NCBI GenBank assembly: GCA_013821605.1
Contig: JACDGP010000039.1
Location: forward strand, 1-43,079
Length of the DNA: 43,079 nucleotides
From: Herpetosiphonaceae bacterium
GTDB lineage: Bacteria; Chloroflexota; Chloroflexia; Chloroflexales; Kallotenuaceae
Direction: 5' to 3'
Shown: positions 13,724 through 38,243 of the stretch, piece after piece
How positions within the stretch are numbered: position 1 is the stretch's first letter
Layout: every line of letters begins with the position of its first letter
The notes under the pieces: generated by a model
The model's database searches: none
Told to the model about the DNA's origin: nothing
What the model saw: the letters and a program-made list of their open reading frames with translations, nothing else
Made by a program: the position numbers and the translations under genes

Positions 13724-13797
13724 CCGCAGATCGCTTTCTCACTCAGTCCTCATCCCTCAGTTCTTTTCACTCGCGTTGTCGAGTATACTAATGATTG

Positions 13798-14205
13798 ATG
13801 GATGGATCGGCTCGACTTCGCGAGCAGGATGTGTATAGGAGCCAGCCGTTCTGGTTGCGGCCATATTGGTGGCTGTGGACCGGCGGCTGCGCGTTGTTGA
13901 TCCTGGTGCTCAGTCTCGGGGCACCATTGCTCTGCGTTGTGCATTGCGCGCTCCTAGACTCCATTCATGCTCAGATGCACCACGCCGACACTTCAGTAAC
14001 CACTGCTGAGGTTCCCTGCTCGATTGGTGCTCCGTTGCCGACGGACCAGCACATCCCGCTCCAGGCAATCTTTCCTGCGATCCTGGTCACCGCTTTTGGC
14101 GTGGCCTGGTGGCCGATCTGGCATAGGTTGCCGGTGCGTGGCTCGCTTCGTCTGCAGCCGTGGGTTATGCCCCCATCATTGCCCCCGCCCCGTATTCACG
14201 GGTAA
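13798..14205 (+). CDS. Small membrane protein of the copper/redox operon
   Basis: The 135-residue product is unfamiliar. It has two strongly hydrophobic segments (about residues 23-50 and 90-105), a His- and Met-containing outside loop between them (CVVHCALLDSIHAQMHHAD) and a basic C-terminus. Three cysteines and several histidines in the first half would suit metal binding. The start is an ATG with no Shine-Dalgarno sequence, but TATACT at 13784-13789 lies eight bases before it, so the message may be leaderless. It is followed by copC, copCD and a cytochrome c gene in the same direction, which is why I connect it with copper or respiratory-chain assembly. Confidence 0.6.
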   Translation: MDGSARLREQDVYRSQPFWLRPYWWLWTGGCALLILVLSLGAPLLCVVHCALLDSIHAQMHHADTSVTTAEVPCSIGAPLPTDQHIPLQAIFPAILVTAFGVAWWPIWHRLPVRGSLRLQPWVMPPSLPPPRIHG

Positions 14206-14335: not shown

Positions 14336-14881
14336 ATGCGTTCAATGAAATATATGGCGGCTGTCCTCTTCGTGCTCGCGCTGGCACAACCGGCGCTCGT
14401 GTCGGCCCACGCCAAGCTGGTAAGCTCAAATCCGGCGAATGGTGCGGTTCTTACGACCATGCCATCTCACATCGTCGCGATCTTCGATGAGGAGTTGAAA
14501 GCGACCGGCCCTTCTATCTTCGTGACCAATGCTGCCGGCAAGCAAGTTGATGCCGGAGATGGCAAGGTTGATCTCAACGATGTCGACCACAAGACGTTAG
14601 CAGTGACCTTAAAGCCCGGACTTGGGGCCGGGACTTATACGATCCACTGGCAAGCGATCACGGCGGATGATAATGGTGTGACGAACGGCGAAATTACCTT
14701 TACCGTCCAAGGCCCTGCGGTCAGGCAACCGTCGTCCGGTACGACCCCAACCACGAGCTCTGCGCCCACGCTGCCCAGCACCGGCAGTTCGGCACCGCAG
14801 TTTGGCTGGCTCTATGCCCTTGCCCTAACGCTTGGCCTGCTCGGCTGGACCGTGCGTCGTCGTTCAGCTTACCAGAGCTAA
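14336..14881 (+). CDS. copC: CopC-domain copper-binding protein with an LPSTG C-terminal tail
   Basis: The 181-residue protein has a signal peptide (ending LVSAHAK) whose cleavage would expose a histidine at the mature N-terminus, as in CopC. The beta-sandwich text HAKLVSSNPANGAVL and the late ITADDNGVTNGEITFTV fit the family, but the usual Asp-Gly-His of the Cu(II) site is DNG here, so one ligand is missing. A Ser/Thr/Pro linker leads to LPSTG, a hydrophobic stretch (LYALALTLGLLGW) and a basic end (VRRRSAYQS), which is the layout of a sortase anchor. The start at 14336 has AAGGAG eight bases before it; another ATG at 14330 is too close to that site. Role: copper binding outside the membrane, delivering to CopD or a cytochrome oxidase. 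Confidence 0.85.
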   Translation: MRSMKYMAAVLFVLALAQPALVSAHAKLVSSNPANGAVLTTMPSHIVAIFDEELKATGPSIFVTNAAGKQVDAGDGKVDLNDVDHKTLAVTLKPGLGAGTYTIHWQAITADDNGVTNGEITFTVQGPAVRQPSSGTTPTTSSAPTLPSTGSSAPQFGWLYALALTLGLLGWTVRRRSAYQS

Positions 14882-14891
14882 ACCGGGTAGC

Positions 14892-14917
14892 GGGAGCCGT
14901 GCATGTGCACGGCTCCC
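14892..14917. promoter_or_regulatory. Perfect 12-bp inverted repeat between copC and copCD
   Basis: GGGAGCCGTGCA and TGCACGGCTCCC are perfect reverse complements with a two-base centre. The repeat fills most of the gap between the stop of copC and the AGGA ribosome site (14918-14921) of the next gene. As RNA it would make a very stable hairpin ending just before the ribosome site; as DNA it is a 26-bp palindrome suited to a dimeric regulator. There is no T tract, so it is not a standard terminator. Confidence 0.65.
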
Positions 14918-14927
14918 AGGAATGATG

Positions 14928-16904
14928 ATGATATTTTTGCCTATCCGTCGTTTAACGCTTGCCGCTGTTGCCCTCGTGCTCTTCTTCGCCGCTGTACCGA
15001 CTGTGAGTGCCCACGCCCAACTGGTTCGCTCGGATCCAGCCTATGGGGCGGTGCTGGTGACGCCGCCAACTGCGGTTCGTTTGTGGTATAGCGAGCGGGT
15101 CGATCCTGCGTTCAGCAGCGCGACCATCGTTGCCGCGAATGGTGCTACGATTGCTACGCCCCAGCCTGCGAGTCGTGCGACCGACGATCCTACAGAGCTG
15201 GTTTTACCCCTAAGCCCACTGGCTCCCGGCACCTATACCGTGGTTTGGCGGGCGGTTTCGGCGGATGATGGTCATAAAACCAACGGTACAATCGTGTTTA
15301 CGGTTGGTCCAGCTCCGGCGGCAAGCCAGGCCGCAAGTGGTGCTAGTGGAGTCGCCACACCGACGGCAAGCCAAGGCGCGAGTGGTGCCACGACCGTCGG
15401 CACGCCGTTCGCCGCCACACCGACGAGCTTGCCTCCGGGAACGAGCCCGACGCTGCCTCCAACCTCCAATGACGTCAGCGAGGAACCTACGCTCTTTGCC
15501 GTAGTGATCCGTTGGCTGGAGTTGTTTGGTGTGGCCTTACTGATCGGCGCGGTTTTTATGGGGTTAGTTGCCTTGCGGCCGCTGGCCGTTCGTGCTGCCC
15601 CCGCCCTGAACGGTTTAGCCCGCATGTGGCGCCGCACCTTGCGCGTTGCACTCCTATGTCTCGGGCTGGGGGTTGCGGGTACCCTGCTGCTACAGGTTGC
15701 AACCGTGAGCGATCAAGGCATGGGGCAAGTGTTTCAGCCGGCCGTCCTTGTGCCCTTGCTTGCGAGTCGCTGGGGTATTCTGTGGGCGCTGCGCGTATGG
15801 TGCGCGCTACTCCTCGTCCCGCTCCTTGTGCCTGCCTTCTGGCAACTACGCTCCTTACCATTGGTCGGAGCCCTGCTGGTCGCCCTGCCCCTCCTATTAA
15901 GCTTTAGCCTGATGAGCCATGCCGCCGCGCTACAGCATGGCGTCGTGCTGGCAGTCGCCACCGATGCCGTACATTATGCAATGGCCTCCCTTTGGGCCGG
16001 TGGCCTCGCGATGCTCCTGCTGTTGCTCGTGTGTACGCGTCGCTTGCCCGTGGAGCAGCGTACGCCGCTGACGCTCCAGCTTGTCGGCATGTTTAGCCGC
16101 GTATCAGTAATCGCCGTCGGCGTGTTAATTGCGACAGGCACCTATAGCTCACTCACTCAATTCACCAGCACAGGTGAATTAATCAGCACGAGCTATGGTC
16201 GTACCTTGTTGCTCAAACTGGCCCTGGCTGCGGTTGCTTTTCTGTTGGGTGGCTACCATTGGCTGATGGCACGTCCCCAAATCGCTACCGTCGCGGGTCG
16301 CTCTGGCCCTGCCCGACGGCTCCTTGATCGCTTACGTGGCACCATCGGCCTCGAAAGTGGTGTCGCTATGCTGGTTCTGCTGGCAGCCAGCGGACTGGTA
16401 CAAACGCCGCCACCTGCCGATGCTAATATGCGAGGTATGGTGATGGCTCCGACAGCGGGTGCATCAAGCACCCCTGTTCCCGTGGTACCTACCGCCACCG
16501 TCTCCACCGCCACACCAACCCCGACCGCAAGCCCGGTGCCGACTGCCAGCCCCACCGCACCTCCTTCGGCCACGCCCACACCCTCGCCCTTTCACGGATC
16601 GGTCATCACTGGTGGGCTTGAAATTGGCCTGACGCTGGATACGCAGGCGATTGGGGAGCGGCAATTCACCGTGACGGTCAAACAGTCGGGCGCTCCCGTT
16701 GCTGCCGATCGTGTGCGCTTGCAGGTGAGTAAGCTTGATCAGGAGCTCGGTACAACCTTGGTTGAGTTGCAGCCACAACAGGCAGGTACTTATCAGGCGC
16801 GTAGTCCCGTCCTGAGCTTGGCCGGGCGCTGGCAGGTCATCGTGCTCGTCCGGCGACGAGGGTTAGAGGATGTTACGGCAAGCTTTCCCATTGATATTCC
16901 ATAG
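14928..16904 (+). CDS. CopC-CopD fusion, copper import/resistance membrane protein
   Basis: The 658-residue product begins with a signal peptide and a CopC domain (mature N-terminus HAQLVRSDPAYGAVL; the second ligand motif is intact as SADDGHKTNG). A low-complexity Ala/Ser/Thr/Pro linker (about residues 125-185) leads to eight or so membrane helices of the CopD type (from LFGVALLIGAVFM to LVLLAASGLVQTPPP, with MSHAAAL and DAVHYAMASLWAGGL). A second Pro/Thr linker then leads to a C-terminal sandwich (ITGGLEIGLTLDTQAIGERQFTV) like YtkA/FixH domains. It would move copper across the membrane or hand it to an oxidase. Three ATGs in a row follow AGGA; the third, at 14928, has the best spacing (six bases). 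Confidence 0.85.
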   Translation: MIFLPIRRLTLAAVALVLFFAAVPTVSAHAQLVRSDPAYGAVLVTPPTAVRLWYSERVDPAFSSATIVAANGATIATPQPASRATDDPTELVLPLSPLAPGTYTVVWRAVSADDGHKTNGTIVFTVGPAPAASQAASGASGVATPTASQGASGATTVGTPFAATPTSLPPGTSPTLPPTSNDVSEEPTLFAVVIRWLELFGVALLIGAVFMGLVALRPLAVRAAPALNGLARMWRRTLRVALLCLGLGVAGTLLLQVATVSDQGMGQVFQPAVLVPLLASRWGILWALRVWCALLLVPLLVPAFWQLRSLPLVGALLVALPLLLSFSLMSHAAALQHGVVLAVATDAVHYAMASLWAGGLAMLLLLLVCTRRLPVEQRTPLTLQLVGMFSRVSVIAVGVLIATGTYSSLTQFTSTGELISTSYGRTLLLKLALAAVAFLLGGYHWLMARPQIATVAGRSGPARRLLDRLRGTIGLESGVAMLVLLAASGLVQTPPPADANMRGMVMAPTAGASSTPVPVVPTATVSTATPTPTASPVPTASPTAPPSATPTPSPFHGSVITGGLEIGLTLDTQAIGERQFTVTVKQSGAPVAADRVRLQVSKLDQELGTTLVELQPQQAGTYQARSPVLSLAGRWQVIVLVRRRGLEDVTASFPIDIP

Positions 16905-16922: not shown

Positions 16923-17864
16923 ATGCATCGTTACAAAAACATAGGGTTGATGCTGTTGGTGGTCGCTAGCTTGTTCGTGTACCGCAGTGTCCAGGCACAG
17001 GCCGGTGGTCCGGTGCAACCCATCCAACAAACCCAGCAGGTCAACGGCTATTCACTGACGCTTAATACGACGCCGGCCACCGGTGAACAAGGCGTCATGG
17101 TCCAGGTCATGGACCCCAAGGGCCAGCTTATGCCCGACGCCCAGGTCATGGTGAACTTCATCATGCCCGGCATGCAAATGACGACGGTACCCAGACCCGC
17201 TGTCGCTGCCGTGCCGGGCCGCTATGATGGGATGGGGGCGTTTAGTATGGCTGGGACGTGGGATGTTGAGGTCACGGTGACACCGGCCAATGCGGCACCT
17301 TTGGTGGCAACCTTTCACGTACCGGTGGTTGATGCCGTGCCCTTGCCGGCACGCCCGGCCCCGTTGCCGCCATCCTTTTGGACCCCTTGGACGGCCACGT
17401 CGCTCGGTTTGCTGGTGGTCGGGCTGGTTGCTGCCGCCTGGACCCAGTGGGGCCGTAAGCGCCAACAAGCGCTCGGTTTTGTGGTGAGTTGGCTTCTTAT
17501 TCTGGCTGCTGCCGGCACCTGGCTTGTGCCTACCGCGCTCGGTGCGCCCTACGCCCTCGGCGCGCCGCGCCAAACTTCTATCAGCCGTGCGACTCCAATC
17601 TTTAAAGCGAACTGTGCTCCCTGCCATGGCGTTGCTGGCCATGGCGATGGCCTGGCGGCGCGGACCCTCAATCCTCCCCCTGCCAACTTAACCGCGCCGC
17701 ACGTCGACCAACATCCTGATGGCCAAATCTATGGCTGGATTCACGATGGCTTCCCAGGTTCTGCCATGCCGGCCTTTGGTCAGCGCTTGACCAGTGACCA
17801 AATCTGGGATTTGGTGGATTACGTGCGCCATCTACGCGCCGTAGCTGCCGGTACAGCAAAATAG
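16923..17864 (+). CDS. YtkA-like domain fused to membrane helices and cytochrome c
   Basis: The 313-residue protein has four parts: a signal peptide (to about residue 26), an extracytoplasmic YtkA/FixH-like sandwich with a Met-rich loop (VNFIMPGMQMTTVPRP and GAFSMAGTWDVEV), two membrane helices (around residues 156-175 and 185-205) and a class I cytochrome c domain. The haem is attached at C231-A-P-C-H235, and Met282 in the phrase SAMPAFGQRL is the expected sixth ligand. The whole faces outside and is membrane-tethered. The start has AGGAG seven bases before it, and the gene follows copCD by 18 bases. It is probably an electron carrier coupled to copper handling for a cytochrome oxidase. The methionines in the first domain could bind Cu(I). 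Confidence 0.85.
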   Translation: MHRYKNIGLMLLVVASLFVYRSVQAQAGGPVQPIQQTQQVNGYSLTLNTTPATGEQGVMVQVMDPKGQLMPDAQVMVNFIMPGMQMTTVPRPAVAAVPGRYDGMGAFSMAGTWDVEVTVTPANAAPLVATFHVPVVDAVPLPARPAPLPPSFWTPWTATSLGLLVVGLVAAAWTQWGRKRQQALGFVVSWLLILAAAGTWLVPTALGAPYALGAPRQTSISRATPIFKANCAPCHGVAGHGDGLAARTLNPPPANLTAPHVDQHPDGQIYGWIHDGFPGSAMPAFGQRLTSDQIWDLVDYVRHLRAVAAGTAK

Positions 17865-25385: not shown

Positions 25386-25487
25386 CTCCACGGTTTACCG
25401 AACAGGCAAACCCGTCGTAAGGCGGGGACGCAAAGCCACGGGTCCAGGATTGTCTGGATAGCCGGGCTCCCGAATTAAACCGAGGAG
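25386..25487 (+). ncRNA. Cyclic-di-GMP-I (GEMM-I) riboswitch with the ribosome site in its P1 extension
   Basis: The core has the conserved GEMM text: ACAGGCAAACC, then a hairpin CCCGTC-GTAA-GGCGGG with a GNRA loop, the linker GGGACGCAAAGCC, a second helix with TCCAG/CTGGA ends, and TAGCCGGG. The closing helix P1 is CGGTTTA (25391-25397) with TAAACCG (25476-25482). This helix extends outward: CTCC (25386-25389) can pair with GGAG (25484-25487), the Shine-Dalgarno of the next gene, over one A-A mismatch. If ligand stabilises P1, the ribosome site is hidden, so cyclic-di-GMP should lower translation. That direction is an inference; identity of the aptamer is clear from conserved bases. It controls the secreted esterase starting seven bases after the SD. 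Confidence 0.9.
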
Positions 25488-25494
25488 TACCATC

Positions 25495-26400
25495 ATGCCA
25501 CGACGTTTCACGCTCGTACTCTTGACCATCATCTGCCTTACCGCTCTTAGCTCCAGGCAGAGCGCCCACGCCGCTACCCCCTGGAGCGGCCTCACGGACT
25601 ACACCATCCAAGTTGGTAGCTATCAACGTACCTATCATGTCCACCTTCCCGTCTCCTACACCGGCACGACCGCCCTGCCACTGGTCGTGGCCCTGCACGC
25701 CTCCAAGGACAACGGTCCGAATATGTCCGGCCTCACTCACTTCAACACGGTAGCCGATACCTATGGCGTCATCGCCGCATATCCAGATGCACTCAAGGGC
25801 GTTTGGAACATGGACGGGACCGCACCGCAAGACGACTTCGCCTTTATCTCGGCGATGATCCAGCAGCTGCGTAGCAGCTTCGCGGTGAATGCCCATCAGA
25901 TCTACGCGATGGGCTTTTCCGAGGGCGGCCAAATGACCGAGGAGTTAGGCTGCAACCTTAGTTCGCAATTGGCCGGCATTGCTTCCGTCTCCGGCCACAT
26001 GTCCAGCACCTATGCCTGCCCAGTCGCTCATCCCATGCCCTACCTTACCTTTCATGGCACAGCTGACACCATCTGGTCCTATACCGGGTGGGCCGGCCTC
26101 AGAGATGGCAAGCACTTGATGGGCGCAACCGATGCTCAGAACAAGTGGGCTTCGCTTGCCTCCTGCACCGCCCCTGCCACCACAACCAACATGCCCAATA
26201 CCGTGCTGACCGATGGTACGACCGAACAACTGCGTGCGATTGGCGGATGCGCAAGCGGTGTTCAGACGCAGTTGTACACCATCACCAATGGTGGCCACAC
26301 CTGGCCGGGCGGTCAACTCTTACCATGGTTTGGGCTGACGAGCCTCGACATTGATGCCAGCACCCTGATCTGGCAATTCTTCGCACAGTATCAAAACTGA
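25495..26400 (+). CDS. Secreted PHB-depolymerase-family esterase
   Basis: The 301-residue protein has a signal peptide (hydrophobic core, cleavage near SAHA-AT) and an alpha/beta hydrolase of the poly(3-hydroxybutyrate) depolymerase/feruloyl esterase (LpqC-like) family. The catalytic Ser142 is in GFSEGGQM, Asp191 in HGTADTIW and His268 in GGHTWPGG. Substrates in this family are polyester chains or plant-wall feruloyl and acetyl esters. It is monocistronic, lies under the cyclic-di-GMP riboswitch, and is followed by a hairpin at 26454-26480. Regulation by cyclic-di-GMP suggests that secretion is tied to the surface-attached or developmental state. Confidence 0.88.
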   Translation: MPRRFTLVLLTIICLTALSSRQSAHAATPWSGLTDYTIQVGSYQRTYHVHLPVSYTGTTALPLVVALHASKDNGPNMSGLTHFNTVADTYGVIAAYPDALKGVWNMDGTAPQDDFAFISAMIQQLRSSFAVNAHQIYAMGFSEGGQMTEELGCNLSSQLAGIASVSGHMSSTYACPVAHPMPYLTFHGTADTIWSYTGWAGLRDGKHLMGATDAQNKWASLASCTAPATTTNMPNTVLTDGTTEQLRAIGGCASGVQTQLYTITNGGHTWPGGQLLPWFGLTSLDIDASTLIWQFFAQYQN

Positions 26401-32596: not shown

Positions 32597-32648
32597 CTTT
32601 GAAAGAATCATGCTATATGCTTTCAAAGTTCCGCACACTTTGAAAGCA
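32597..32648. promoter_or_regulatory. Three CTTTSAAAG operator-like sites at the start of the Fic gene
   Basis: CTTTGAAAG (32597-32605), CTTTCAAAG (32620-32628) and CTTTGAAAG (32638-32646) each form a short palindrome. The last two are the cores of a perfect 12-bp inverted repeat, TGCTTTCAAAGT and ACTTTGAAAGCA (32618-32629 and 32637-32648), with a seven-base centre. They flank or overlap the first codons of the Fic gene, so the site probably belongs to autoregulation; a later start for the Fic frame is possible. The repeat could also act as an RNA hairpin over the start. Confidence 0.5.
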
Positions 32649-33373
32649 GCCTTTATTCCTACTCGACTGCCACCCGCTCTTGTCTATGATGCGGCCCTGG
32701 TGCTTGCACTATCCCGTGCTGACACAGCGCTCGGTGAACTGGCGGGACTTGGTCGGCAGTTGCCCAACCCAAATCTCCTGATTGGGCCATATGTTCGGCG
32801 AGAGCCAGTGCTGTCATCACGCATCGAAGGTACCCGCACGAGTTTGTCTGAACTACTGCTCGACGAGGTAGATGATCATAGGCATCGTCCACAAGATGCC
32901 GATCTCCAGGAGGTCCGCAACTATATAGAGGCCCTGGAGTACGGCATTCAGCGTCTGCAAGAGTTCCCTCTTTCTCTACGATTGGTGCGCGAGATCCACG
33001 CTCGGCTGATGACCGGCTGGCTCCACTTCTTTCTCACCGGCGTAACCGAGACCGCTCATACGGCTGTACAGCAAGCCAAAACGCTCATGGATTTGCGCGA
33101 GGAGTTTCGTGCTCGGCTGCGTGATAAACCGAAAGCCCAGGCGCTGCTCGATGATTATTTGTGAACCCCTATATCACTGTCACGAAAGCAGCCCTGGCGC
33201 TGCAATCCTCAACCCCCACAGCACGCCCGGCTATACAGGTCCTGGAAGCCGATGGCATGCTGCAAGAGATGACCGGTGGTAATTGGCGACGAGTCTACCT
33301 TGCAACTCCCATTCTGCGAGCGATTGAAGGAGCAAGCACTGCTAGTTCCGAACATTTGCTATCCAACTCCTAA
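32610..33373 (+). pseudogene. Fic-family gene with catalytic core deleted and a frameshift
   Basis: The first part is a Fic protein's N-terminal domain: RLPPALVYDAALVLALSRAD, LLIGPYVRREPVLSSRIEGTRTSLSELLLDEV and IHARLMTG. It then jumps directly to GWLHFFLTGVTETAHTAV, which in full-length relatives follows the Fic core. The whole core with the HPFxDGNGR motif is missing; the joint is near 33009-33020. A further frameshift near 33155-33165 separates the last helix-turn-helix (VNPYITVTKAALALQ, MLQEMTGGNWRRVY), which continues in another frame to 33373. With no catalytic motif it cannot transfer AMP. It is divergent from the HTH antitoxin of the neighbouring PIN pair. Confidence 0.8.
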
Positions 33374-34826: not shown

Positions 34827-37800
34827 ATGCCCCACATTTTCGATAACATTGAAGCACCACTATTGCCCGCGTTGCGTGCTACGCTCCAAGAATCCTATCG
34901 CGCCGACTTTTGTATCGGCTACTTTAACCTACGGGGCTGGGAGCAGCTCGCCGCATCGGTTGACCATCTTGCTGGTACTCCCGAATCCTGTTGCCGACTG
35001 CTGGTCGGCATGCACCGAGTACCGGAAGACGCCATGCGCGAGGCCCAGCGCGCTGTACGGCGTGATGAATCCCTCGATGGTCCCACCATTGCGCGGCTGC
35101 ACACCAAAGCAGCCCGCAGCTTTCGTGAACAGTTAGAGTTTGGCGTACCGTCGGCCCGCGCGCAAGGGGCACTACGGAAGCTGGCCGAGCAACTGCGTGT
35201 ACATAAGGTTCAGGTCAAACTCTTTCTGCAATATCCGCTGCACGCCAAGCTCTATCTCTTACATCGCCATGATCGCATCACCCCACTTGTCGGCTACGTC
35301 GGCTCAAGCAACTTGACGCTTTCTGGCCTCCTCTCTCAGGGTGAGCTCAATGTCGATGTAGTCGAGCAGGATGCTGCCGTCAAGCTCCAGCATTGGTTTG
35401 ATGAGCGTTGGGATGATCGCTTGGCTTTCGACATTTCGGCTGAGTTGGTCGAGTTGATCGAAACCAGTTGGGCGGCTGATCGCCTCATCCAACCTTATCA
35501 CGTCTACCTCAAGATGGCCTACCATCTGAGCGAGGAGGCTCGTCGTGGTGAACGCGAATTCAAGCCGACGCCTGAGTTTAGGGATGTGTTGCTGCCATTC
35601 CAAGAGAAAGCAGTCTCCCTCGCCGCCTACTATCTCCAGCGGCGGGGCGGCGTACTGCTCGGTGACGTTGTTGGCCTCGGCAAGACGCTCATGGCTACCG
35701 CCGTCGCCAAGATTTTCCAGCAGGATGACAACAGCAACACACTAATTATCTGCCCGCCGAAGCTCCAGGAGATGTGGGAGTGGTACGTCGGGCAATACCA
35801 TCTCGCGGCACGCGTCCTTTCGCTGGGCCGTGTAATCGAAGATCTGCCCGGCCTGCTGCGCTATCGCCTGGTGATCATCGATGAAAGTCACAACTTGCGC
35901 AATCGCGAAGGCAAGCGCTATAGTGCAGTCCGCGACTACATCGTGCGCAACGAATCGCAGGTCTTGCTGCTCACGGCCACGCCCTATAACAAGCAATACA
36001 CCGATTTGAGCAACCAATTGCGCCTGTTCCTGGACGAAGACCAGGATCTGCATGTGCGCCCCGAGCAGTTTTTTCAGACCTGGACCGAGCGCGGACGCAA
36101 CGAGGCCGACTTCGTCGCCGATTTTCAAACGTCGCCTCGTTCGATTCGTGCCTTTGAGCAAAGCACCTTTCCTGACGATTGGCGCGATTTGATGCGACTG
36201 TTTTTGGTACGCCGTACACGCCAGTTCATCATCCGCAACTACGCGCAATGGGATGCAGATCGGCAGCGGTCGTTCGTGCTGCTCAATGGTCAACCATCCT
36301 ACTTTCCCTTACGCCAACCTAAAACCGTGCAATTCGCCCTAGACGAAACTGATGCTGGCGACCAGTACGCCCGCCTTTATCGCGACGAGGTCGTTGATGC
36401 TATCGGCGATCTAGCCCTGCCGCGCTACAATCTGGCCGAGTTTTTCATCGCGAATCCGCAGCGGCGTGCGAATGCCCAGGAAAAGCGCATCATCGACAAC
36501 CTTGAGCGTGCCGGACGCCGTCTGCGTGGCTTTAGCCGCTCGAATCTCTTTAAGCGCCTGGAGTCAAGCGGCTATAGCTTTTTGCGCTCGCTGGATCACC
36601 ACATTTTGCGCAACATGATTACCTTACACGCCCTTGAACATAACGAGCTGGTGCCGATTGGCACCCAAAATGCTGCCTTGCTCGATCCCTTCGTGCGCGA
36701 CGTAGACGACGAGGAAGCCAGCGAGGAGCTTGCGGGTAGTAGCGAGAACGACACGCCTACCAGCATTGAAACTCCCGTGTTTGCTTCTGATCTAGATACC
36801 TATCGCGACCGTGCGGCGCAGGCTTACCGTGCCTACCGCGCTGACTTTGAACGTCGTTTCACCTGGCTGCCTGCCAAGTTCTTTCAAGCCCAGCTCAAGC
36901 AAACGCTGCGCAACGATGCTGAAGCCTTGCTTGCTATCCTGCAGGAGGTAGGCGTCTGGCAGCCCGCGTACGACGTGAAGATGAATGCCCTGTATGAGCT
37001 CATCGTCCAGACCCATCCGCACGATAAGCTACTCATCTTCACACAGTTTGCCGATACTGCGCACTATCTCGGCGAACTCCTTGCGGCTCGTGGCTTGACC
37101 CGCTTTGCGGTTGCTACCGGCCAGTCCGGTGACCCAACGGCCTTAGCTCGTCGCTTTAGCCCCCACAGTAATGGTGGGCTACGACCGGGTGAAACCGAAT
37201 TGCGTGTGCTGGTCGCGACCGATGTGCTGGGCGAAGGTCAGAACTTGCAAGACTCGCACGTGGTCGTCAACTTTGATCTGCCGTGGGCCATTATTCGCTT
37301 GATCCAGCGTGCGGGGCGTGTTGATCGCATTGGGCAAAAGCAAGATACCATCAACGTCTATTCCTTCTTGCCCGCCGAAGGCATCGAGCGCATTATTCGC
37401 CTGCGCTCGCGGCTGACCGAGCGCCTAAGCCACTTTCACGAGGTCATCGGTTCGGATGAGACCTTCTTCGGTGAAGATGCCGCCTTGAAGTTGCGCGATT
37501 TGTACACCGAACAGCAAGGTGTGCTCGATGAAGACGATGATAGCGATGTTGACCTAGCGAGCGTGGCCTTACAGGTCTGGAACAGCGCCTCGGATGCCGA
37601 TCGTGGTGCTGCCGAACGCTTGCCGCCGGTGATTGCAGCCGCTCGTTCGGTCAGTGATGGCGTGGTTTCCGGTGATGGGCAGCCCGGCGTCATTACCTAT
37701 CTCCGTTTCCCCGATGGCACCGATGCCCTCGTCCATGTGAATGCCGCCGGTAATCTCGTCGGCCAATCACTCTCACGTGCATTTCGCTCTGCCGCCTGCG

Positions 37801-38243
37801 GACCTGACACCGTAGCCCTACCCGTTCCCGATCAGCACTACGATCTTGTTGCCGAGGCCGTGCAGCAGGCGGTCCAAGAGCAAACGACCTTCGGCGGTGA
37901 GCTTGGCTCCTTACGCTCCACTCGGCGCAAGGTCTACGAGCAACTGAAGCTCTTTATAATGCAACAACAGGCCCATCCTACCTTGTTCACCGGCCCATTG
38001 CTAGAGCGCCTCAACCCTGCCTTCGAGCTCATCCGGCGGTATCCACTCCGGGAGACCGCCCGCGATACCCTCGGTCGTCAAATGCGTCTCCGGATTGGGG
38101 ACCAGCCGTTAGCAGAACTGATGATCCGCTTACACGAAGAAGATCGGCTCTCGGTCATTATCGACGAAGTCGAGCAGCCCGAGCCGCAGGTGGTCTGCTC
38201 GCTTGGGCTGGTCGCCCCGGACCCCGCCACGTTGCTTTCATAA
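34827..38243 (+). CDS. PLD-domain SNF2-type helicase (defence system)
   Basis: The 1138-residue protein joins two enzyme modules. The N-terminal third is a phospholipase D-like nuclease domain with the HKD pattern: H139-A-K-L-Y-L and, 20 residues on, GSSN (159-162) in VGSSNLTLSGLL. The rest is a superfamily 2 helicase of SNF2 type: Walker A GDVVGLGKT (279-287), DESH box (352-355), the SAT-like TATPYNKQYTDL, and motif VI RAGRVDRIGQ (828-837). Known relatives act in restriction or DISARM-like systems, where the helicase translocates on DNA and the PLD-type domain can cleave it. It is followed 28 bases later by the methylase. The single HKD could require dimerisation to form an active site. Confidence 0.88.
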   Translation: MPHIFDNIEAPLLPALRATLQESYRADFCIGYFNLRGWEQLAASVDHLAGTPESCCRLLVGMHRVPEDAMREAQRAVRRDESLDGPTIARLHTKAARSFREQLEFGVPSARAQGALRKLAEQLRVHKVQVKLFLQYPLHAKLYLLHRHDRITPLVGYVGSSNLTLSGLLSQGELNVDVVEQDAAVKLQHWFDERWDDRLAFDISAELVELIETSWAADRLIQPYHVYLKMAYHLSEEARRGEREFKPTPEFRDVLLPFQEKAVSLAAYYLQRRGGVLLGDVVGLGKTLMATAVAKIFQQDDNSNTLIICPPKLQEMWEWYVGQYHLAARVLSLGRVIEDLPGLLRYRLVIIDESHNLRNREGKRYSAVRDYIVRNESQVLLLTATPYNKQYTDLSNQLRLFLDEDQDLHVRPEQFFQTWTERGRNEADFVADFQTSPRSIRAFEQSTFPDDWRDLMRLFLVRRTRQFIIRNYAQWDADRQRSFVLLNGQPSYFPLRQPKTVQFALDETDAGDQYARLYRDEVVDAIGDLALPRYNLAEFFIANPQRRANAQEKRIIDNLERAGRRLRGFSRSNLFKRLESSGYSFLRSLDHHILRNMITLHALEHNELVPIGTQNAALLDPFVRDVDDEEASEELAGSSENDTPTSIETPVFASDLDTYRDRAAQAYRAYRADFERRFTWLPAKFFQAQLKQTLRNDAEALLAILQEVGVWQPAYDVKMNALYELIVQTHPHDKLLIFTQFADTAHYLGELLAARGLTRFAVATGQSGDPTALARRFSPHSNGGLRPGETELRVLVATDVLGEGQNLQDSHVVVNFDLPWAIIRLIQRAGRVDRIGQKQDTINVYSFLPAEGIERIIRLRSRLTERLSHFHEVIGSDETFFGEDAALKLRDLYTEQQGVLDEDDDSDVDLASVALQVWNSASDADRGAAERLPPVIAAARSVSDGVVSGDGQPGVITYLRFPDGTDALVHVNAAGNLVGQSLSRAFRSAACGPDTVALPVPDQHYDLVAEAVQQAVQEQTTFGGELGSLRSTRRKVYEQLKLFIMQQQAHPTLFTGPLLERLNPAFELIRRYPLRETARDTLGRQMRLRIGDQPLAELMIRLHEEDRLSVIIDEVEQPEPQVVCSLGLVAPDPATLLS

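Follow-up and report, generated by a model that had tools for sequence, protein, structure and literature searches.

The contig JACDGP010000039.1 of a Herpetosiphonaceae bacterium (assembly GCA_013821605.1), whose 43,079 nucleotides were analyzed as a whole and are called here the window, carries two neighbouring genes with CopC domains. They raise the question of what a short, secreted CopC protein with a sortase-type tail and an altered copper motif would do beside a CopC-CopD fusion. An earlier note on this DNA had proposed a two-step copper relay, in which the first protein is anchored in the wall and has a weakened Cu(II) site. The first gene, and the parts of its product that concern the fold, are as follows.

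14336 to 14881, + strand: stand-alone CopC gene, with signal peptide, CopC domain, linker and sorting-type tail (translation and orthologs)
14336 to 14407, + strand: signal peptide, residues 1-24, presumed to be cleaved before H25 (read from the sequence)
14408 to 14707, + strand: CopC domain, residues 25-124 (PF04234, AF2 model and fold match)
14408 to 14410, + strand: N-terminal His ligand (His25) of the CopC domain (sequence)

The gene translates into 181 amino acids, and its product is indeed, as the note had described it, a CopC protein ending in LPSTG, a hydrophobic stretch and a basic tail. Its start, read from the translation by eye, resembles a signal peptide that ends in LVSA and is followed by HAKL. 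The pair A24-H25 is invariant across 15 aligned proteins, and His25 would be the first residue of the mature protein after signal cleavage. A Pfam scan of the protein matched PF04234 at residues 25-124 with an E value of 3.6e-18 (66.8 bits, cut-off 23.3), and CopC structures ranked first in a fold search. The AF2 model of the mature protein, built with 48 aligned sequences, has a pLDDT near 98 over residues 1-100, a helix at residues 133-155 and a loose linker. The solved structure closest to the model is the CopC domain of YcnJ (PDB 9c14; Foldseek E 1.2e-9; Z 17.6, rmsd 1.2 over 97 residues). The linker between the CopC domain and LPSTG is composed of Ser, Thr and Pro, and by eye the protein lacks the Met-rich Cu(I) motif. 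The tail comprises three further features.

14771 to 14785, + strand: LPSTG sorting motif, residues 146-150 (translation and anchor models; kept in all 20 orthologs)
14804 to 14872, + strand: C-terminal helix, mature residues 133-155 (AF2 helix and sequence)
14855 to 14863, + strand: RRR after the C-terminal hydrophobic stretch (sequence)

The tail reads LPSTG-SSAPQFGW-LYALALTLGLLGWTV-RRR-SAYQS, so that the protein has the signal peptide, LPxTG, hydrophobic helix and basic end of a sortase substrate, with model scores that lie near the cut-offs, on either side of them. In protein scans the tail was borderline (PF00746, 19.1 bits with a cut-off of 20; TIGR01167, 14.6 with a cut-off of 15.9), and in genome scans its locus passed both anchor models (18.1 bits and 20.9 bits). 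Across 158 genomes of the class, 20 stand-alone CopCs at E <= 3.6e-59 were taken as clear orthologs, the next match being at 9.0e-38. The pentapeptide precedes the helix in every one of them, as LPxTG (14), LPATS (4) or VPATG (2). Past the CopC domain, the alignment of 15 proteins has just five invariant positions: P147 and T149, which belong to the motif, and G170, R174 and R175; the P and T of the pentapeptide are kept in 15 of 15 distinct ortholog tails, and positions beyond the pentapeptide vary. Owing to this conservation the tail is more than a chance resemblance, and we take it to be a conserved sorting signal, through which the protein would be linked covalently to the wall.

The note had made its reading depend on a sortase gene in the genome, and our search found three. 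By eye, a T(L/M)x(T/S)C motif supplies each of the encoded proteins with a Cys, and an Arg lies further on; their top-scoring models are of class E, E and F, at values under the cut-offs of those models. At least one sortase gene was found in 59 of the 60 genomes searched, the source genome included, and the co-occurrence of sortase and tail is for that reason uninformative. Within the source genome (G000), the anchor model matched 21 places at E up to 10, and 10 of them are C-terminal [LM]PxTG tails, stand-alone CopC included. The nine others, four of them MPNTG, lie on contigs C6, C30, C31, C38, C126, C212, C223 and C247, and suggest a wider sorting system. On contig C53 a sortase gene (L001 847-3340) is directly followed by the gene of a repeat-rich protein with an LPATSGG-hydrophobic-RTRRKR tail, likely a sortase-substrate pair, and on C223 a sortase gene lies about 2 kb from that of an LPNTG-tailed protein. 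For Chloroflexus, passages of a 2006 paper report no evidence that its sortase-like protein functions as a sortase (PMC1586193).

The best surviving alternative is a tail that does no more than anchor the C-terminus in the membrane, with no sortase acting on it, so that the protein stays there as YcnI of Bacillus subtilis does. The anchor models that fell just under their cut-offs in the protein scans fit this reading, as do four stand-alone CopCs (L088, L091, L092 and L093) that by eye end in a hydrophobic stretch without LPxTG, and YcnI itself functions with a membrane helix. However, a plain anchor would not explain why an LPxTG-type tail is kept in 20 of 20 orthologs, with P and T fixed and the positions beyond the pentapeptide varying, and both the sortase genes in 59 of the 60 genomes and the nine other tails of the source genome speak against it. 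We consider it somewhat unlikely and proceed with the sorting signal.

The second peculiarity of the protein is its copper motif.

14669 to 14677, + strand: D112-N113-G114, replacing the Asp-x-His motif of the Cu(II) site (alignments; DGH in 18 of 20 orthologs)

The alignment confirmed both earlier statements about this motif: the usual Asp-Gly-His reads DNG in the stand-alone protein (ADDNGVTNG), whereas the CopC domain of the adjacent fusion retains DGH at equal spacing (ADDGHKTNG). The Asn and Gly codons each differ by two bases from the Gly and His codons, and DNG is hence not a simple sequencing slip. The alteration is not general among the orthologs: 18 of 20 have DGH, and the exceptions, the source genome and G005 (DGE), belong to one family. 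Since 18 orthologs keep DGH, neither the tail nor the pairing with the fusion needs the altered site. The sortase search did not refute the proposed wall-anchored relay; the 18 orthologs speak against a relay that depends on a weakened site. To read the lost His as a weakened Cu(II) site in this particular protein is nonetheless fair.

Beyond the orthologs, the His is missing in 14 of the 36 stand-alone CopCs read, which are best-scoring loci and no census. Seven of the 36 came from a wider search of 400 genomes of the phylum, and five of these seven lack the His (G279, G293, G310, G328 and G433). The motif of the 14 reads DGD in seven proteins, DNG in two, and DGE, DDD, DQG, DGG and DEA in one each, which places an acid at the position of the lost His in nine. 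All 14 retain the motif Asp and the N-terminal His, a retention partly built in for the nine proteins from the class, whose mature start was located via the His after the signal. Eight of the 14 have a tail with LPxTG (6) or LPxAG (2). We found no general replacement for the lost His: L087 alone among the class's other His-less proteins has, by eye, a His aligned with H85, as does the DGH-keeping protein of G012, and in the same alignment none has a His exactly at H104.

We built a tree of 59 CopC domains from a 109-column alignment, in which many forks are unsure. One branch (96/86) separates 30 partner domains from 29 stand-alone domains; partner, or fusion, means here a long or open-ended frame, and two of the 30 (L050 and L065) are cut off with CopD unconfirmed. 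DxH is kept in all 30, and DGH in all eight partner domains outside the tree (G012, six of genus g4, and G155). L059, dropped beforehand for its short CopC row, keeps DGH and resembles a broken partner gene. The His-less state maps to three changes, at least two of them on well-supported branches, all among stand-alone proteins. The CopC encoded at 14336-14881 groups weakly (82/47; inner fork 98/70) with the His-less proteins of G079, G089 and G104, which come from three other families and carry the tails LPTTG, LPTTG and LPNAG. A private error of this genome is rejected as the origin of the altered motif, given that the tree needs at least two losses and that DGE, DGD, DDD, DQG, DNG, DGG and DEA occur in other genomes.

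A domain that repeatedly loses a ligand might also be degenerate, that is, a CopC that binds no metal, like those of class C0-0, and that serves the fusion only as a partner in structure or interaction. CopCs that have no His-coordinated copper site already form a recognised class (passages of PMC12154828), and the residues that replace the His vary among the 14 proteins. Against this reading, all 14 keep the motif Asp and the N-terminal His (with the reservation made above for nine), nine of them have an acid where the His was, and the structure model gives a CopC fold at high confidence. We therefore regard a degenerate domain as unlikely. Instead, the stand-alone protein could possibly bind Cu(II) through its N-terminal His and the Asp, and such a site should be more labile than the DGH one in the fusion.

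The region downstream of the gene contains the following features.

14892 to 14917, + strand: intergenic hairpin with a perfect stem of 11 bp, separating the CopC genes (RNAfold -25.3 kcal/mol, z -3.76)
about 14922 to 16904, + strand: CopC-CopD-YtkA fusion, whose CopC keeps DGH (PF04234, PF05425 and PF13115; scanned from 14928)
16923 to 17864, + strand: gene with a YtkA domain and a c-type cytochrome domain (PF13115 and PF00034; spacing)

With its CopC-CopD-YtkA order and its DxH (DGH), the fusion appears to be a YcnJ-type protein with a putative role in import. The same domain order is found in B. subtilis YcnJ (passages of PMC12154828), and in that organism the CopC-CopD protein serves copper import, as stated in passages of PMC12154828 and PMC13344008. 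The gene at 16923-17864 probably belongs to the same operon as the fusion. On the other side of the stand-alone gene, a small ORF (13795-14205) encodes a hydrophobic stretch, CVVHC and further His residues; the 113-aa part of it that was scanned had no Pfam match, and it may be part of the copper operon.

The pairing is conserved. Of the 20 orthologs, 19 are followed immediately by another CopC gene, in which CopD was identified in 18 cases; the contig of G005 breaks off within the partner gene, and in G016 the ortholog itself is at a contig end. Among the 14 His-less CopCs a second CopC gene adjoins in 10 (upstream in G079), and the partner has D-x-H in nine of the nine readable cases, the partner in G279 being cut off before the motif. 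The partner in G293 had no CopD match, the sequences of G328 and G433 end before CopD, and no second CopC gene was seen in the available stretch for G104, G147, G150 and G310.

Stems comparable to the intergenic hairpin (perfect, at least 8 bp, shuffle p <= 0.02) lie just 3' of the stand-alone gene in 11 of the 20 orthologs, followed by terminator-like T runs in six genomes of one family. No such perfect stem was found in the other nine, nor at the three further His-less loci tested (G079, G089 and G137). Where present, the hairpin could favour more stand-alone protein than fusion. As a genome-wide operator it was rejected, with a single occurrence in the genome at up to 3 mismatches. CopC first became known as a copper-resistance protein, and the stand-alone protein might instead be a copper sponge in the wall that serves defence or resistance and does not depend on the importer. 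This reading could draw on that original description and on hairpins that might raise the protein's output over that of the fusion, but the conserved pairing with CopC-CopD (confirmed in 18 of 20), a protein that serves import in B. subtilis, makes it quite improbable.

Elsewhere in the window we observed a c-di-GMP-I-GGC riboswitch (25396-25475; 65.8 bits) just 5' of a gene at 25495 that resembles those of esterases, a protein that begins with a Fic N-terminal domain (32610-33161), and a large SNF2-like helicase that also carries a PLD-like domain (34827-38240), which may be a defence or restriction gene.

We propose, with moderate confidence and by analogy with B. subtilis, that the stand-alone CopC is a sortase-anchored partner of the YcnJ-type fusion that captures or buffers Cu(II) and stands in the slot of YcnI, with a one-histidine brace. 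The secreted domain would be held at the cell surface by its tail, would take up or buffer Cu(II) outside the membrane and would exchange it with the two-histidine CopC domain of the adjacent importer, filling the place that B. subtilis gives to YcnI (DUF1775). In this lineage the brace would have lost its second His, which leaves His1, the Asp and perhaps other acids as a one-histidine brace like that of YcnI. We infer the covalent wall linkage, the Cu(II) binding by half a site, the transfer to the fusion and its direction, and that the copper is imported and not exported; export or detoxification is possible instead. The interpretation in the note is partly supported; its two-step relay would rest on the analogy with YcnI and YcnJ, the conserved adjacency and the position of the gene. 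Points against the proposed role include the 18 orthologs with DGH, the four His-less CopCs with no second CopC gene in the available stretch, and, among the findings on YcnI given below, the apparent preference for transfer from YcnJ to YcnI, the secondary role of YcnI and the small effect of His27Ala. YcnI also needs its membrane anchor (passages of PMC12154828), and a wall-linked protein would sit differently.

A bolder version, which we offer tentatively and think rather unlikely, is that in bacteria like these Chloroflexota a one-histidine, sortase-anchored CopC replaced YcnI as a wall-held donor of Cu(II) to the adjacent YcnJ-type importer. It would have arisen by repeated loss of a brace ligand in a CopC paralog, and the relay would consist of two versions of one domain. 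If the proposed role is right, these proteins would amount to a natural, repeated experiment on the role of the second histidine in the CopC brace, an independent counterpart to the YcnI-YcnJ pair of B. subtilis, and a concrete candidate substrate for asking whether the sortases of these bacteria anchor proteins. In the portions of the open-licence literature available on CopC, sortase/LPXTG, YcnI, Chloroflexota and Herpetosiphon, we found no description of this pairing.

Compared with known systems, the stand-alone CopC has the features of Gram-positive sortase substrates (signal peptide, LPxTG, hydrophobic helix and basic end, with sortase genes in the genome), but comes from a Chloroflexales-like lineage. 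A search with the single CopC protein found nothing, and the lineage was inferred from a tryptophan-synthase-like neighbour: Viridilinea, Roseiflexus, Chloroploca and Chloroflexaceae are among its best named matches, and other phyla match at similar identity. Among the CopC classes, it resembles C0-1 and C0-0 in being a stand-alone CopC and in its apparent lack of the Met-rich Cu(I) motif. C0-1 has both His, whereas here His25 and Asp112 are present and Gly114 stands in place of the second His; C0-0 lacks both Cu(I) ligands and a Cu(II) site coordinated by His (passages of PMC12154828), whereas one His and the Asp remain here, so that the protein falls between the two. CopC homologues with a hydrophobic C-terminus (PMC10924467) share the CopC domain, the signal peptide and the C-terminal stretch; in the passages available from that source they are not described as having an altered copper site, a sorting motif or a pairing with an importer. 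The CopC domain of YcnJ shares the fold, the N-terminal His and the Asp, and differs in having a second His and in being fused to CopD and YtkA, whereas the stand-alone protein has a sorting-type tail.

YcnI belongs to another family: PF07987 had no match in the stand-alone CopC at E up to 1, and DUF1775 had none in any of the 20 ortholog genomes, the source genome included. DUF1775 occurs in seven of the 158 genomes of the class, where a CopC gene adjoins all eight loci. A mutual exclusion of DUF1775 and tailed CopC was rejected: they occupy the same slot, yet with seven DUF1775 genomes among 158 their non-overlap is not significant (0.38 by chance). According to the passages available from PMC8424229 and PMC12154828, YcnI binds Cu(II) through its N-terminal His and a Glu, with a nearby Trp and without a second His; a helix at its C-terminus anchors it, and Cu(II) passes between it and YcnJ's CopC domain. 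Removal of the anchor or change of the Trp mimics deletion under copper limitation, and His27Ala has a small effect (same sources), for which reason the retained His of the stand-alone CopC may matter less than assumed. Transfer between YcnI and YcnJ in vitro is bidirectional, with an apparent preference from YcnJ to YcnI (PMC12154828), and in later work YcnI is assigned a secondary role (PMC13344008), again in the passages available. The stand-alone CopC differs from YcnI, then, in family and in YcnI's Glu, Trp and membrane helix; it would resemble YcnI as an extracellular Cu(II) domain with an N-terminal His, no second His and a hydrophobic C-terminal tail, encoded, as YcnI is (passages of PMC8424229 and PMC12154828), beside a CopC-CopD-YtkA protein.
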